A stretch of 64,000 nt of DNA from a bacterium. Lineage in GTDB: Bacteria > ARS69. Numbering within the stretch: position 1 is the first letter of the stretch; every line of letters begins with the position of its first letter. Shown in pieces: positions 31,388 through 42,084 of this stretch. The translations under genes and the position numbers were made by a program. The notes under the pieces are model-generated. The model was not told where the DNA came from, ran no database searches, and was given only the letters and a program-made list of their open reading frames with translations. The stretch covers positions 54,609 through 118,608 of the forward strand of contig JALGZR010000014.1 in NCBI GenBank assembly GCA_025774805.1, given 5' to 3'.

Positions 31388-32515
31388 GCGCCCCTCTCAC
31401 GGTGGGAATCGACGCTCGGAAGATCCGCGACTACGGGATCGGAAGGTATCTGCAGGGGCTCCTCACCGGGCTCGCCGGGACGGCGGGGAACGACCGGTTC
31501 GTCCTCTTTCTCAACGACCCGGACCGCTCCCGGCTTCCCGGGACGCTCCCCGCGGCACTCGACCCCGAGCGGTTTCGAACCGTGCGCTGCGCCGCCCCGC
31601 TCTACTCGTGGCGCGAGCTCCTCGCCTTTCGAGGCAGCGGTTCCCGCCACGGGCTCGATCTCCTCCACTTCCCGCACTACGTGCGCGGCTTCGCCCCGGG
31701 CTGCCCGGTGGCGGTGACGATCCACGACGCGATCCACCTCTCCCATCCCCCTTCCCTCGCCGCCCAGCTCTACGCCCGGACGATGATGCGGTGGGCGGCG
31801 AGGACGGCGAGCGCGCTCTTCGCGGTGACGGAGGCGGCCCGGGACGACATCGCGCGAAGGGTCGGCGTCGATGCGTCTCGATTTCGTGTGACCCGGACCG
31901 GAGTTCAGGCCCCCCCCGGCCGATGGGGTCGAGCGGTTCCGGCGCGAACGCGGCCTCCCCGCGGAGCTCGTGGTCGTGATCGCGTCTCACCGCCGGCACA
32001 AGAACCTGGCCGCCGCGGTGGAGGCGTTCCGCCGGGCGACGGTGCCGGAGGCGGAGCTCGTCGTTCCGGCGCGGGACGCGGAGGCCGCCGGTCGCCTGCG
32101 TCCGCTGGTGCGACCGGCCGGCCGCGTGCTGGAGGGGGTGGAGGACCGGCACCTTCCCCTGCTGTACGCCGGGGCGCGGGTCGTCCTGGTGCCCTCTCGG
32201 GCCGAGGGGTTCGGCCTGCCCGGCCTCGAGGCGGCCGCGTGCGGGGCGCCCGTTCTCGCGACCCCGATCCCCGCTCACCGGGAGGTGCTCGGCGACGCCG
32301 CCCACTACGCGGTCTCCGGAACGCCCGCGGCGTTGGCCGAGGCGTTGTCTCGACTCTGGGACGATGAGCCGCTCCGCGACGCCCTTTCTCGACGCGGACC
32401 GCTCCGGGCGGCCCGGTTTTCGTGGTCGGACACGGCGGAGCGCACCCTCGCCGGGTATCGCGAGGCCGTGGCGGGCGGGCGGCCACCTCGTCGGCCTGCG
32501 GGGCCTCTGGTATGA
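31384..32515 (+). pseudogene. Glycosyltransferase family 4, frameshifted at an 8-C homopolymer (31910-31917)
   Basis: First part VSAPLTVGIDARKIRDYGIGRYLQGLLTGLAG...VTEAARDDIARRVGVDASRFRVTRTGVQAPP; after a -1 shift it continues ADGVERFRRERGLPAELVVVIASHRRHKNLAAAVEAFRRATVPEAELVV...VVLVPSRAEGFGLPGLEAAACGAPVLATPIPAHREVLGDAA. Confidence 0.8.
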
Positions 32516-32616: not shown

Positions 32617-35571
32617 CTACGCTCGCGCGTCCGCGACGGAGTCACGGGAGAACCCGGTCCGGAACACGGCGTCCAGCAGCGACGTGGAGTGATCCCAGTC
32701 GAATCGCCTTGCGGTCTCCCGGCCGGCTCGAATGAGGCTCTTCCTCAGATCCTCGTCGTCGATCAGCTCCTGAACCGCCCTCCGGGCCGCTTCCACGTCT
32801 CCCCGCGGGACGATCAACCCGTTCTCACGATGAACCGCATATTCCTCGATGCCCGTGACCTCGCCCATGACACACACTCCGCCGCAAGCCATCATCTCGA
32901 GCGGTGGACCCGGAAATCCTTCGACCTCGCTCATCTTCAGCAAGATGTCACAGCTCGAGTAGATGTGCTTCATCTCACGCATCGGGACCCGGTCGAAGAA
33001 CCGATCGCACTTCCACTCCGGCCTCGGACGGCCGGCGCTGCTGACACACCACACCTCGCAGTCGAGATCGTTCACCGCTCGGAAGGCATTCTCCATTCCC
33101 TTGAACGGCACGTCGATCGGACCTTCGAGAAGGACGCGGATCCTGGATCCTCGCGGCTCGAGCGGAGCGGCGGGATGGAAGATCTCGGCGTCGCACCCGT
33201 TCGGAACGACGTGGGCGGACCTGCCGAAGTCCCGTCGCAACCAGTCCTGGATCCACTGCGCGATCGTGATGATCTCGAGATCGAGACGATACGTCTCGCG
33301 GACCAGCTTCTGGAGGCGCTCATCCTCTGGATAGAATCGGGTTTCATCCGACTGGACGAAGTAGTACCGCTTCTCCGCCGGGAGATCCCTCACTACGTAG
33401 GCCGTCGTCCAGCCGGTGGCCACGAGGACGTCGAACAAGTCGGGAGTCGCCTCCCGGATCGGTGTCACCTCCAGGCCGTCGGAGGGAAACCAGTCCAGAT
33501 TCGTCTTCGCGTCCTCGGAGAAGATCTCGACGCGGTATCCGAGGCGGCGCAGGCGACGGGCGTGCTGGGCGACGACCGCCACTCCTCCCGAGATGCCGGA
33601 CGCCGGGACAAGAAACGCGACGCGGGGTAAGAGGGGGCCGCGGTGGACGTGGTCCCTCATGATGCGCATGTGCCACGCCTCCGAATCGTCGAGCTTCGTG
33701 AGCTCCAAGTTGCCCTCGTGCAGGCGGAGATTCGTCAGAACGCGCGGGATGGCCCGAAGGCGGTATCCCGCTCTCGCCAGGCGAAGCCAGAGCTCGTGGT
33801 CCTCGCGGTACCCGAGCTCCGCCTTGAGACCGCCGGCCCATCGCAAAGCCGAAGCCCGGGCCAGGACCGTGCTCTGGCATGGAACGCAGGCTCGCTTCAG
33901 ATCCTCCACGTCGCACTCGGGGCTCAGAACCACCTGTCCGTTTCGCAGACCGTGGTCGCGGGGATCGTCCTTCCACTCCGTCCTCGCCTTCCATCCGCCG
34001 TACACGAGATCCGCCTCCGTGGACTCGATCTCTTCCACGGAGACTTTCAGGCGATCCGGCTCGGCCACGTCATCGCTGTCGTGAAAGGCCACGAAGCGAC
34101 CTCGGGCCTCGGCGATTCCGACGTTGCGTCCCTTGACCGGTCCTCCGCTCCGCTCCTCCCATTCGAAAACCCGGACGCGGGGATCTCCTCGGAATTCGTT
34201 GATCACTCTCCGCGTTTCGGGCGGCGAACCGTCGCAGGCGAGGATGAGCTCGAACGAGTCGTAATCTTGATCGAGAATGGAGCGCACGCTCTCGCGTAGA
34301 ATATCCGTTCGGTCGTAAACCGGGATTACGACCGTGACCCGAAGCGGATAAGGCGCGAGCAATTCCCTCGCGCCGGGTCGATCGGATCGGATCGGGGTCT
34401 CGGCGAAGAGAGCGCCGCTCTCGCTCCGCCCCCGGAATCGTCCCCACCTGACGCGCAGCTTGGCGGCGAACGGGGAGACCCCCTCGTCGATCAGGGTCTT
34501 GAGCGCGTTCCGCAAGAGATCGTAGACGCGCCGCCTCCGAGTGCCCTGCGGCAGGATGAAGTCCTTGATCCTCCAGACGGTTCGGACGAGGCGGAAGAGA
34601 AGGCCCGATTGGAGCTCGCGATACGCGGCTTCGTGAGACTCGGCCTGGAAGCGAGCGCTCGTGACGGCCGCTTCGAGCTCCCGAATCCGGGCTTCGAGCT
34701 CGTCCCGTTCCCGCGTGGTTCGGTCCCGAAGCTCTTCCATGGCGTCCAACGCCTCGCGCGCGCGGTCCTGTGCGCGCTCAAGGTGACCACGCATCCTGCT
34801 CAGCTCGTTATGGTACTGATTCATCAGTACGTTTGCGGTGTCGAGGAGCTCCTCAGGAGCGGGAGAGGGGGGCAGAGGACCGTTCGAGGCCATCGCGATG
34901 AAGTAGAGAGGACTCATCTCGGGGGACGGGGGGAAGGAGAGGCCGTCCCCGATCTGCTCGATGACGAGCCCGGGGCGAACCGAGCTCGGGATCCCCTCCT
35001 CGAGAGACCAGATCCGCGAGCCCGCTTGAATGCGTTGTCCCAGGAGATGAACGTGCGCGAAGTGACGGCCCAACAGTGCCCGGAACTCGGCGCGATCCAG
35101 TTCCCGTACGTGGAACGGATTCGTGTAGTCGGCGTCTACGGAGTACGTCTGTCGGTCCGGAGTGGAGACGAGAAGCAATCCCTCGGGCCTGAGCCATCGC
35201 CGGATGTTCTCGAGGAGCGCATCGTGCTCTGCTATGTGCTCGAGTGCCTCCATGCAGACGACGACATCGAACGGCTCCCGATCACTCTCGGGGGGATCGA
35301 GCATCGATCCGGTCTCGAATCGCAGATTGTGCGAGTCGTAGCGTTTGCGGGCGTGCTCGACCGCCTTCCCGTCGATGTCCATTCCCAGCACGAAGGCCGC
35401 ACCCTTCGCCAGGAATGCCGCGCCGTATCCCTCGCCGCAGGCCAGGTCGAGCACGCGCCTCGCGCCGCAGTAGCGCGCCGCGAGGGCGTACCGGTGCCAG
35501 TGCTCGTAGGCTATGGCGGCATCCCCGAACCGAGGAATGTAACGCTCTCCGGTCCACTCGAGGTCAGTCAT
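32617..35571 (-). CDS. Fusion protein: SAM methyltransferase + coiled coil + GT2 glycosyltransferase + GT4-like glycosyltransferase
   Basis: RVLDLACGEGYGAAFLAKGAAFVLGMDID; coiled coil LERAQDRAREALDAMEELRDRTTRERDELEARIRELEAAV; LRVTVVIPVYDRTDILRESVRSILDQDYDSFELILACDGSP...GRFVAFHDSDDVAEPDRL; RVAFLVPASGISGGVAVVAQHARRLRRLGYRVEIFSED...EGFPGPPLEMMACGGVCVMGEVTGIEEYA. Confidence 0.9.
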   Translation of the reverse strand: MTDLEWTGERYIPRFGDAAIAYEHWHRYALAARYCGARRVLDLACGEGYGAAFLAKGAAFVLGMDIDGKAVEHARKRYDSHNLRFETGSMLDPPESDREPFDVVVCMEALEHIAEHDALLENIRRWLRPEGLLLVSTPDRQTYSVDADYTNPFHVRELDRAEFRALLGRHFAHVHLLGQRIQAGSRIWSLEEGIPSSVRPGLVIEQIGDGLSFPPSPEMSPLYFIAMASNGPLPPSPAPEELLDTANVLMNQYHNELSRMRGHLERAQDRAREALDAMEELRDRTTRERDELEARIRELEAAVTSARFQAESHEAAYRELQSGLLFRLVRTVWRIKDFILPQGTRRRRVYDLLRNALKTLIDEGVSPFAAKLRVRWGRFRGRSESGALFAETPIRSDRPGARELLAPYPLRVTVVIPVYDRTDILRESVRSILDQDYDSFELILACDGSPPETRRVINEFRGDPRVRVFEWEERSGGPVKGRNVGIAEARGRFVAFHDSDDVAEPDRLKVSVEEIESTEADLVYGGWKARTEWKDDPRDHGLRNGQVVLSPECDVEDLKRACVPCQSTVLARASALRWAGGLKAELGYREDHELWLRLARAGYRLRAIPRVLTNLRLHEGNLELTKLDDSEAWHMRIMRDHVHRGPLLPRVAFLVPASGISGGVAVVAQHARRLRRLGYRVEIFSEDAKTNLDWFPSDGLEVTPIREATPDLFDVLVATGWTTAYVVRDLPAEKRYYFVQSDETRFYPEDERLQKLVRETYRLDLEIITIAQWIQDWLRRDFGRSAHVVPNGCDAEIFHPAAPLEPRGSRIRVLLEGPIDVPFKGMENAFRAVNDLDCEVWCVSSAGRPRPEWKCDRFFDRVPMREMKHIYSSCDILLKMSEVEGFPGPPLEMMACGGVCVMGEVTGIEEYAVHRENGLIVPRGDVEAARRAVQELIDDEDLRKSLIRAGRETARRFDWDHSTSLLDAVFRTGFSRDSVADARA

Positions 35572-38140: not shown

Positions 38141-38920
38141 CTAGGAAAGGTAGAGCAAGAACTGGCTCTCCTGACGGCGGAAGACGGTAAGCCCGACCAG
38201 GAAAGACACGATCGCGCACCCCCCCGCGATCAGGAAGTAGGTGGCGTCCGGCCACGCGCCCTGGAAGAAGACGCTCCGGAAGACGGTCACCTGGTAGAAC
38301 ATCGGGTTCAGCTTCACGACCCAGACGAATCGCTCCGGCAGGATCGAGAGCGGATATATGATCGGGGTGAGGTAGAAGAGCGCCTGCAGGGACACTTCGA
38401 TGATTTGTCCGAGATCGCGAAAGAAGACGGTCCATGCGGACAGCGCGAGGACGATCCCCGCGGTGAAGAGACCGAGAATCACCAGGCAGAGCGGTATGGA
38501 GAGGATCGAGAGTGGAGGTGGAATCCGCTGCCACGCCATCACGATCAACAGGGGAACGAGCGCGAGAAGGAAGTTCACCAGGTGGCTCAGCACGAGGGCG
38601 AGCGGGAAGATCGCGCGCGGCACGTAAATGTTCCGCAGCAGGGTCTCGTTGTGCACCATGGAGAGGGCTCCGCCGGCGACCGACTGGGCGAAGAACGTCC
38701 AGGCAAGAAGCGCCGACAGCACGAACACCGGGTACTTCTCGACCTGGATCCGCCACACGTGCGAGAAGACCATCGTCAGGATGATCATCGTGAACAGCGG
38801 GTTCAACATCGTCCACGCGAACCCGAGGACACTGCGTCGGTAGCGGAGCTTCAGCTCCTTCCCGACCAGGATCGCGGCGAGCTCGCGGTAACGCCAGAGA
38901 TCACGGAGTGTGTGGATCAG
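38141..38920 (-). CDS. Polysaccharide ABC exporter permease (Wzm/TagG-type); probable CTG start
   Basis: MLNPLFTMIILTMVFSHVWRIQVEKYPVFVLSALLAWTFFAQSVAGGALSMVHNETLLRNIYVPRAIFPLALVLSHLVNFLL. The upstream in-frame region LIHTLRDLWRYRELAAILVGKELKLRYRRSVLGFAWT belongs to the family N-terminus and is preceded by GGGGGGAG. Confidence 0.88.
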   Translation of the reverse strand: MIHTLRDLWRYRELAAILVGKELKLRYRRSVLGFAWTMLNPLFTMIILTMVFSHVWRIQVEKYPVFVLSALLAWTFFAQSVAGGALSMVHNETLLRNIYVPRAIFPLALVLSHLVNFLLALVPLLIVMAWQRIPPPLSILSIPLCLVILGLFTAGIVLALSAWTVFFRDLGQIIEVSLQALFYLTPIIYPLSILPERFVWVVKLNPMFYQVTVFRSVFFQGAWPDATYFLIAGGCAIVSFLVGLTVFRRQESQFLLYLS

Positions 38921-39294: not shown

Positions 39295-40182
39295 CTACTC
39301 GGTGAACTGACCGAGCCGTTCCAGGCACCGCCGCAGTCCGTCTTCCCACGTCGGCATGGGCGGAATCCCGACCTCCGCGAACCGCGTGTTCGCGAGCACG
39401 GAGTTCGACGGGCGCCGCGCCGGGCGGGGGAACTCCGACGACGAGACCGCGTTCACGGTGACGCTCAGCCCCGCCCTCGCGAAGATCGCCCGGGCGAATC
39501 CGTTCCACGTGACCGCGCCCCGGTTCGTCACGTGAAAAGTCCCGGAGGCGTCGGAGAGCGCGAGGTCGATCAGACCGTACGCGAGGTCCGCGGCGAACGT
39601 GGGAGAGCCGAGCTGATCGTCGACGACGGCGAGCTCCGGCCGCTCCGCGGCGAGGCGCATCATCGTCAGGAAGAAGTTCGCGCCGTGGTCCGCGTAGAGC
39701 CACGCCGTGCGGGCCACCGCGCCCGTCCGCCCCAGGAGTCGCACCGCCTCCTCCCCGACGAGCTTCGACCACCCGTAAATCGACAGCGGCCCCGGCGGAT
39801 CGCTCTCGAGATACGGCTCCTTCTTGTCGCCCGAGAAGACGTAGTCGGTCGAGACCATGACGAGCCGGGCCCCCGTCTCCCGGCACGCCTCGGCGACGTG
39901 AGCCGTGGCGCGCCCGTTCGCCAGGAACGCCTTCTCCGGATCGGACTCGCAGCCGTCGACGTCCGTCCAGGCGGCGGCGTGGACCAGGGCTCTCGGTCGC
40001 GCGGCGTCGAGAGCCCGCATCACGGCCTCGCGATCGGTCAGGTCGAAGTCGACGAGATCCCAGGGAATCGGCTCGAGCGAGCGGGCCCGCGCCGCGGCGA
40101 CGAGCTCCCGGCCGAGCATCCCCGCCGCGCCCGTCACCGCCAAGCGCGCGGGGCGGTCTCCCCCCCCTCGGGTCGCGCTCAC
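39295..40182 (-). CDS. rfbD: dTDP-4-dehydrorhamnose reductase (RmlD/RfbD)
   Basis: LAVTGAAGMLGRELVAAA; ALVHAAAWTDVDGCESDPEKAFLANGRATAHVAEACRETGARLVMVSTDYVFSGDKKEPYLESDPPGPLSIYGWSKLVGEEAV. Confidence 0.94.
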   Translation of the reverse strand: MSATRGGGDRPARLAVTGAAGMLGRELVAAARARSLEPIPWDLVDFDLTDREAVMRALDAARPRALVHAAAWTDVDGCESDPEKAFLANGRATAHVAEACRETGARLVMVSTDYVFSGDKKEPYLESDPPGPLSIYGWSKLVGEEAVRLLGRTGAVARTAWLYADHGANFFLTMMRLAAERPELAVVDDQLGSPTFAADLAYGLIDLALSDASGTFHVTNRGAVTWNGFARAIFARAGLSVTVNAVSSSEFPRPARRPSNSVLANTRFAEVGIPPMPTWEDGLRRCLERLGQFTE

Positions 40183-41246
40183 TCGGGTACCTGGATCTCG
40201 GAGCTGTCGCCGACCATGAAGCGGAACGCGCGAGGCTTCGCCGGCGAGCGGGTGATCCGGACGTTCTTGCCGACGAGGCTTCCCTCCATCCGTCCCCCGA
40301 TCGACTCGATCCGGCTGTTCTCCAGGATGATCGAGAACTCGATCTCCGCCCCGAGGATCTCGCAACCGCTGGAGATCGAGGTGAAGGGGCCGATGTAGGA
40401 GTCCCTCACCACGGTCCCCTCCCCGATCACGAGGGGTCCTCTCAGCTCCGAGTTCTCGATGACCGCACCCTCGGCGACGACGACGTCGCCGATCACGCGG
40501 GTCCCGCCCAAGGTCGACCCCCGGACGTCGCGCTCGACCCCGGACAGAGCGACGCGATTCGCCTCGAGCAAGTCCTCGAGCTTCCCGGTGTCCTTCCACC
40601 ACCCCTTGATGATGTGACTCGTCACCTCTTTCCCGTTCCGGATGAGCCACTGAATCGCGTCGGTAATCTCGAGCTCGCCGCGCGAGGAGGGCTGAATGGC
40701 GTGCACCGCCTCGAAGATCGTCGAGTCGAACATGTAGACACCCACGAGCGCGTAGTCCGACTTCGGTCTCTTCGGCTTCTCCTCCAGCCCGATCACCTTT
40801 CCGCCCTTGATCTCCGCCACGCCGAAGTCGGAGGGATTCGGGACGCGCGCCAGGAGAATCTGCGAATTCGGACGCTCCTCCTCGAACTCCCGGACAAGCG
40901 GGGAGATTCCGTCCTTGATGAAGTTGTCGCCGAGGAACATGACGAAGCTGTCCGCCCCGATGAAATCCTGCGCGATCTTGACCGCGTGGGCGAGTCCGAG
41001 CGGAGCGGCCTGATGAATGTACGTGGCATTCACCCCGAGGTCGGCTCCGTCCCCGACCGCCGCCTCGATCTCGCGGGCGGTGTCTCCGACGATGATCCCG
41101 ATGTCGGTGATGCCGGCCTCGCGGATGGCTTCGATCGCGAAGAAGAGGATCGGCTTGTTCGCCACCGGCACGAGCTGTTTGGCGCTCGTGTGGGTGATTG
41201 GTCGAAGCCGCGTGCCTTTGCCTCCGGAGAGAATCAGTGCTTTCAA
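40179..41246 (-). CDS. Glucose-1-phosphate thymidylyltransferase, long form with left-handed beta-helix C-terminus
   Basis: MKALILSGGKGTRLRPITHTSAKQLVPVANKPILFFAIEAIREAGITDIGIIVGDTAREIEAAVGDGADLG; VMFLGDNFIKDGI; WWKDTGKLEDLLEANR; hexapeptide-type repeats. Confidence 0.93.
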   Translation of the reverse strand: MKALILSGGKGTRLRPITHTSAKQLVPVANKPILFFAIEAIREAGITDIGIIVGDTAREIEAAVGDGADLGVNATYIHQAAPLGLAHAVKIAQDFIGADSFVMFLGDNFIKDGISPLVREFEEERPNSQILLARVPNPSDFGVAEIKGGKVIGLEEKPKRPKSDYALVGVYMFDSTIFEAVHAIQPSSRGELEITDAIQWLIRNGKEVTSHIIKGWWKDTGKLEDLLEANRVALSGVERDVRGSTLGGTRVIGDVVVAEGAVIENSELRGPLVIGEGTVVRDSYIGPFTSISSGCEILGAEIEFSIILENSRIESIGGRMEGSLVGKNVRITRSPAKPRAFRFMVGDSSEIQVPE

Positions 41247-41259
41247 CGACGCCTCCTCC

Positions 41260-42080
41260 TCATGAGTCGCGGCCGGTGAACCGGCGCAGCCATCGCTTCG
41301 CGGTCGAGGACGGCCCGATCTCGATCGGCGTCGTCTCGACCGGTTCTCCCCGGGCGATCCGCCAGGGACGCTCCGAGGTCATGCGCTCGGCCTCCTCGCT
41401 TCCGACGATCCGGGCCGCCGCCTCCCGCCCCCGGGCGAGGCAGAACGGCCGGCGACCCCGGTCGTGGGCATCGGAGGCCAGGATGTGACCCGCCCCCGCG
41501 GCCAGAAGGCGTTCGGCGGCCTCGCGGGAATCGCGGCCGAGGTAACCCAGCAGGCTCGAGGCGTTGATCTGCAGGAGAACGCCGTGGCGGACCCACTCGC
41601 CGACCGGGGAGAGATCCGCCTGGAGCTCACGATTCCGTTCCGGGTGCGCCACGATCGGGCGACGGCCGAGGGCTCGCAGCGCATCGAGAACTTGCCCCAG
41701 GTGACTCGGCACGGCGCGCAACGAAAAGTCGAGAAGAACATAGGGCCCCTGCCGACCCAGGGTCACGGCCTTTTCCGCGAAATCGCCGGCCGCCGTCCGG
41801 TCCGAGAGGAAGTTCTCCGCACCGGGCAGGACGTCCAGGGAGATTCCCTCCCGATCGAGTCCCGCCGTGAGACGTCGGTGCTCGACCTCGAGGAGCTCCG
41901 GCGTCGTGTCGAAGAGCCCGACCCCCAGATGGGACGTCGCGATCACCGCCTCGCACCCCTGGTCCCGCGCGTCGCGGGCCATCGCGATCGCCTCGGGGAG
42001 GTCGACCGCACCGTCGTCGACGGCGGGCAGTATGTGACAGTGGAGATCGATCATCTCCCGAGGCCCGCCCGCTTCGCCGG

Positions 42081-42084
<4 letters not shown>
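41260..42084 (-). CDS. CpsB/CapC/YwqE-type PHP-fold tyrosine-protein phosphatase-like protein
   Basis: MIDLHCHILPAVDDGAVDLPEAIAMARDARDQGCEAVIATSH; PIVAHPERNRELQ; INASSLLGYLG; HILASDAHDRGRRP. Confidence 0.88.

Follow-up and report, generated by a model that had tools for sequence, protein, structure and literature searches.

A 64,000-nucleotide stretch of DNA from a bacterium of the ARS69 lineage, referred to here as the window, encodes a 984-amino-acid protein in which a methyltransferase (MT), a coiled coil, and two glycosyltransferase (GT) domains follow one another on one chain. The question is whether such a protein could both build and terminate a surface polysaccharide, and how termination would relate to the ABC exporter encoded next to it. 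We favor, with a probability of roughly 0.6, a single-chain polymerase-terminator that O-methylates the chain end of an ABC-exported surface polysaccharide. The product would likely be a methyl-capped, rhamnose-containing, ABC-exported glycan. The domains and their motifs, the predicted helix, the gene context, and the recurrence of the module in other bacteria all favor this reading.

The reading frame is unbroken, with no internal stop codon over 984 codons of translated sequence, and its GC content by codon position (0.68/0.46/0.80) indicates coding DNA. Pfam identified a methyltransferase (residues 38 to 142; E = 5e-19), Glycos_transf_2 (residues 413 to 532; E = 4e-29), and Glycos_transf_1 (residues 858 to 952; E = 1e-18) but no kinase family in the protein. 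The SAM loop VLDLACGEGYG is intact at residue 40. The catalytic residues of both GT domains, on which the fusion proposal depended, are likewise intact: DSDD at residue 498 and RED (the ED motif) at residue 589 of the GT2 domain, and the EX7E motif of the GT4 domain (EGFPGPPLE at residue 884). Pfam, the frame, and AlphaFold2 therefore bear out the sequence-only reading of a single uninterrupted ORF with MT, coiled coil, GT2, and GT4. The MT-coil and GT4 regions were modeled separately; a whole-protein alignment in which GT-only fragments were misaligned onto the MT was discarded. Most of the MT domain was modeled with pLDDT above 90, and the best solved relative of the GT2 domain was chondroitin synthase (2z86/2z87; E = 2e-18). 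An FYP...TY motif prompted consideration of the GT4 domain as a WsaF. This candidate was dropped because WsaF was absent among the GT4 profile and fold matches listed and because the canonical first glutamate of EX7E, which WsaF is missing (PMC3898925), is present here. A viral scan with the whole 984-residue protein as the query returned no matches, and among the matches listed phage records gave only generic GT2 and MT hits.

Table 1. Coordinates of the fusion gene, its domains, and the neighboring genes in the window
Feature	Position	Strand	Remarks
MT-coiled coil-GT2-GT4 fusion protein	32617..35571	-	984 aa, one ORF, ATG start
Class I SAM methyltransferase domain, N-terminal	34882..35571	-	Residues 1-230; Pfam, alignment, AlphaFold2
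Acidic heptad coil	34606..34857	-	Residues 239-322; heptad test and AlphaFold2
Basic amphipathic post-coil segment	34426..34605	-	Residues 323-382; 16 K/R vs 4 D/E
GT2 (GT-A) domain	33652..34350	-	Residues 408-640; Pfam, intact DSDD and ED
GT4 (GT-B) domain	32668..33627	-	Residues 649-968; Pfam, EX7E intact
Separate GT2 protein, 564 aa	35691..37385	-	Directly after wzt; Pfam
Wzt ATPase, 245 aa	37385..38122	-	69 aa beyond ABC domain, without Wzt_C
Wzm permease	38141..38920	-	Pfam; first ATG 38809, likely CTG start 38920 behind GGGGGAG
RmlD dTDP-4-dehydrorhamnose reductase	39295..40146	-	TIGR01214 above cut-off
RmlA long-type glucose-1-phosphate thymidylyltransferase	40179..41246	-	TIGR01208 above cut-off
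CpsB/CapC-type capsular polysaccharide protein	41260..42084	-	Pfam

The coil had been estimated at about 60 residues. That figure matches the longest Pro/Gly-free run of the protein (residues 263 to 322), but the helix predicted by AlphaFold2 is longer, a continuous 101 residues (239 to 339) with block pLDDT of about 72 to 95, so the coil is ordered in the model. About 84 of these roughly 100 residues form the acidic coil, and hydrophobicity at its heptad a and d positions exceeded that of 99.4 to 100% of shuffled sequences in the five segments tried. The coil DNA of this gene contains no tandem repeat. Compared with WbdD, as the sequence-only reading had suggested, the protein does have an extended helix, but it is short beside the 249-residue noncatalytic C-terminal region of WbdD (PMC3482155). 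The basic segment that follows the coil contains the most strongly amphipathic helix in the protein. Relatives have SWRLTxPLR-type amphipathic ends or transmembrane hairpins at the same position, and the composition of the segment makes its association with the membrane probable.

The fusion gene is the last of a series on the minus strand in the order AlaRS, CpsB/CapC, RmlA, RmlD, Wzm, Wzt, GT2 protein, and fusion protein. The exporter is a neighbor of the fusion gene, as the earlier reading had it. Genes for RmlB and RmlC, above curated cut-offs, are on other contigs of the genome. Because RmlA, RmlD, RmlB, and RmlC all scored above cut-off, the genome probably makes dTDP-L-rhamnose, which from this gene content is the likely donor for the fusion protein. 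The description of the exporter ATPase as short and free of a C-terminal glycan-binding domain also held: Wzt_C (PF14524) had no match in the Wzt, whose NCBIfam matches to TagH and to galactan Wzt/RfbE were all under cut-off. Nor was Wzt_C found in a search of the whole draft genome (96% complete, 284 contigs, from a phylum represented by five genomes in the collection), although the same search was positive in 2 of 14 control genomes. A divergent cap-binding CBM could escape the PF14524 search. The proposal that the Wzm/Wzt context fits chain-terminated export is therefore supported as far as the position of the exporter is concerned, but not by a cap-binding Wzt_C, which is absent from both the Wzt and the genome. 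The Wzm has a conserved N terminus upstream of its first ATG (38809 to 38920), a region with no in-frame ATG, GTG, or TTG.

In the favored reading, the C-terminal GT2 and GT4 domains, together with the separate GT2 protein, would elongate a lipid-linked chain, probably one containing L-rhamnose. The GT end of the protein would be kept at the membrane by the basic amphipathic segment, and the helix, about 12 to 15 nm long, would space the MT away from that end. The nonreducing end of the chain would be O-methylated only when the chain is long enough, and methylation would then halt growth, with the chain exiting through Wzm/Wzt. The cap would either go unread by the exporter or be read by something else.

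The order of terminator, coil, anchor, and GTs is the same as in characterized systems, which further favors a polymerase-terminator. In those systems the terminating enzyme is at the far end of the coil and the polymerase is held at the membrane at the other end, so that only long chains reach the terminating enzyme (PMC11231755, PMC3482155). Coil-bearing terminators, including those fused to polymerase GTs, are known and have been described as widespread (PMC11231755). The closest precedents for the window protein are WsaE, O7 ORF6, and O12 WbbB.

WsaE, from the S-layer glycan cluster of Geobacillus stearothermophilus NRS 2004/3a, has an N-terminal MT and two rhamnosyltransferase domains, and methylates rhamnose, a modification assigned to the chain cap; its cluster has the order wzm-wzt-wsaE-rml (PMC2943079, PMC3898925). 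It provides a biochemical precedent for the favored reading, and it is like the window protein in having an N-terminal MT with two GT domains encoded among wzm, wzt, and rml genes, a likeness of architecture and context rather than of sequence comparison. The operon in the window, with wzm, wzt, rmlA, and rmlD, also favors a polymerase-terminator. However, a role in binding the methylated chain is predicted for the Wzt of the WsaE system, and WsaE methylation in vitro was independent of chain length (PMC2943079).

ORF6 of Klebsiella pneumoniae O7 carries an N-terminal terminating MT, a central coiled coil, and two C-terminal GT modules that use dTDP-Rha on one chain, with ABC export (PMC11231755). 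The window protein likewise has two C-terminal GT modules, but it has GT2 and GT4 modules and an MT only, whereas ORF6 has two GT2 modules and, between the MT and the coil, a kinase plus an Ig-like CBM. WbbB of K. pneumoniae O12 also combines terminator, coil, and polymerase GTs on one chain, but its terminator is a Kdo glycosyltransferase rather than a methyltransferase and its exporter has a CBM (PMC11231755). Among the features of the O7 ORF6 and O12 WbbB types, a candidate terminating enzyme on the N-terminal side of the coil, an extended coil, and two C-terminal GT modules are present in the window, and a Wzt with a cap-binding module is absent.

WbdD of Escherichia coli O9a/O8, to which the ruler layout had first been likened, shares the N-terminal MT, the coil, and the membrane-proximal end (PMC3482155). 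It fits less well because it recruits its polymerase, WbdA, as a second protein and its O9a form combines the MT with a kinase, the O8 form having the MT without one; its exporter also has a cap-binding domain. WbdD has no GT on its chain, whereas the window protein carries two GT modules. With the MT profile, WbdD did not appear in the top 60 PDB sequence matches, nor did it appear in the top 50 matches listed by fold. What stands of the likeness is the order of terminator, rod, membrane-proximal segment, and polymerase, for which O7 ORF6, WbbB, and WsaE are closer models.

Many bacteria carry the MT-coil module, either by itself or joined to varied GTs, and often beside wzm/wzt. The MT family is recognizable by its N-terminal GERxxP...EHxxRY motif, and 35 columns were invariant in an alignment of nine sequences; a survey of phylum G245 found no family members at E ≤ 1e-60. 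Stand-alone MT-coil proteins are about 340 to 740 residues long, and many then carry an amphipathic or transmembrane segment; in fusions, assorted GTs follow the coil. Stand-alone genes adjoin wzm/wzt in a betaproteobacterium (L009), in Shinella (L022), in several species of one further genus (L164, L166, L168-L170), and in genome G196, where the order is Wzm-Wzt-MT-coil. In genome G108 an MT-coil-GT2-GT2 fusion adjoins wzm and wzt. Overall, wzm and/or wzt lay within about 10 kb of 10 of the 19 family members with context, a count limited to the fetched flanks, so that an exporter could lie farther out in the other nine.

The MT-coil-GT2-GT4 order is not unique to the window. At least three further lineages have it: Gluconobacter oxydans (1,155 residues), Pseudodesulfovibrio profundus (1,209 residues), and genome G039 (1,162 residues). 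The MT parts of five fusions were 36 to 44% identical to the window MT. In comparisons with the three proteins of the same order, the whole MT was 36 to 42% identical and the GT halves 23 to 32% (E of about 1e-5), GT matches too weak to support shared ancestry of the GT halves. Because the GT parts match poorly and the MT well, it appears that the MT-coil was joined to different GTs, and such fusions probably arose more than once. Two IMG/VR contigs classed as viral (L058:2968-5334 and L060:1846-4215) encode 790-residue MT-GT2-GT4 proteins that lack a coil and are 75 to 80% identical to each other. An Aminobacter plasmid (L018:8932-13374) encodes a 1,480-residue protein in which an MT-coil start is followed by a WbsX domain, GT4, and GT2.

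It is possible that the protein is a multifunctional GT with a decorating MT. Internal or side-chain sugars would be methylated, the coil would serve for oligomerization only, and chain length would be set by the rate of export through Wzm/Wzt, as happens in systems without a CBM. We consider this unlikely but the strongest of the alternatives. The absence of a cap-binding domain from the Wzt and from the genome search would suit a decorator, as would the coil-less MT-GT2-GT4 proteins and the Aminobacter fusion, which has no exporter nearby. However, MT-coil-anchor proteins repeatedly adjoin wzm/wzt even as stand-alone genes, and a conserved rod and anchor have no obvious use in a pure decorator. 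The polymerase-terminator reading, for its part, has to accommodate the missing Wzt_C, a coil that is short relative to the WbdD region, the length-independent methylation by WsaE, the coil-less proteins, and the nine members with no wzm/wzt in their flanks. Because coil-less proteins exist and some members have no exporter in the fetched flanks, a ruler cannot be deduced from the fusion by itself.

The exporters at MT-coil loci are of more than one type. Wzt_C was found in the Wzt of Shinella (E = 4e-32) and of a distant Pseudomonas aeruginosa locus (E = 1e-19) and weakly, under cut-off, in that of the betaproteobacterium (E = 9e-6). The Wzts of genus G136 extend about 150 to 200 residues past the ABC domain with no Pfam match there. 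Bare Wzts, without Wzt_C and with about 70 residues past the ABC domain, were found in the window, in G196 (252 residues), and in G108 (291 residues). Cap-dependent export in studied systems requires a cap-binding domain (PMC9445017), and the bare exporter is therefore the point of departure from the cap-reading model. The new element, in a phylum that has been poorly sampled, is an MT-only terminator that shares its chain with GT2 and GT4 and has a bare exporter as its partner. No description of this combination was found in a literature search, with most subscription journals outside the search. Enterobacterial O antigens gave rise to the rule that a coil-bearing terminator is accompanied by an exporter able to read the cap; the window and two other loci pair such a terminator with a bare exporter, which makes the rule testable outside the enterobacteria.

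A tentative extension of the polymerase-terminator reading, possible but with the odds against it, is a methyl-terminator/ruler class with a cap-blind exporter, in which the coil-bearing enzyme alone would set chain length and methylation would only stop growth. Such a class would uncouple methylation from export selection and would have its first members in the window, G196, and G108. It is improbable that export is instead strictly cap dependent as in WbdD/O9a, with either an unrecognized CBM protein or the bare Wzt/Wzm itself reading the cap. The overall layout is the same as that of WbdD/O9a, and the bare Wzts of G196 and G108 indicate that the combination is no accident of this assembly, but no candidate CBM gene was found and the PF14524 genome search was empty. 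An assembly or gene-calling artifact fusing adjacent MT and GT genes is very improbable, since, despite a 284-contig draft and a frame-broken GT4 gene nearby, the frame is uninterrupted, its GC pattern is coding, and Gluconobacter, Pseudodesulfovibrio, and G039 share the domain order. The broken GT4 gene (31400 to 32515, plus strand, convergent with the fusion gene) is split between two frames, with the change at or near a C8 run at about 31910 to 31917; this is a sequencing error, a pseudogene, or a phase-variable tract.

Of 20 family genes scanned with Tandem Repeats Finder, 11 contained in-frame repeats, almost all of them inside the coil, with periods of 21, 33, 42, 54, 63, 84, 126, and 138 bp. 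Because the repeats are confined mostly to the coil and most are whole heptads, coil length varies while the MT stays. Coils that grow in this way make the coil-as-ruler hypothesis directly testable. In the MT-coil-GT2-GT4 protein of a P. profundus plasmid (L023:5798-9427), the coil consists of nine 18-residue (54-bp) repeats with a 99% match. P. aeruginosa plasmids (L017:8007-10700 and the same gene in L024-L029) encode a distant relative, 32% identical in its second MT domain, in which MT-MT-coil directly follows wzm/wzt and the coil is an exact 28-residue (84-bp, four-heptad) tandem repeat. Across the locus the seven plasmids share at least 99.8% identity, and their coils differ only in repeat number. 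They carry 4, 4, 4, 6, 7, 7, and 9 copies, numbers that assembly collapse of repeats may have shifted in individual records; in one record six full copies are identical in DNA sequence. This variation offers a natural test of the putative coil ruler in existing isolates.
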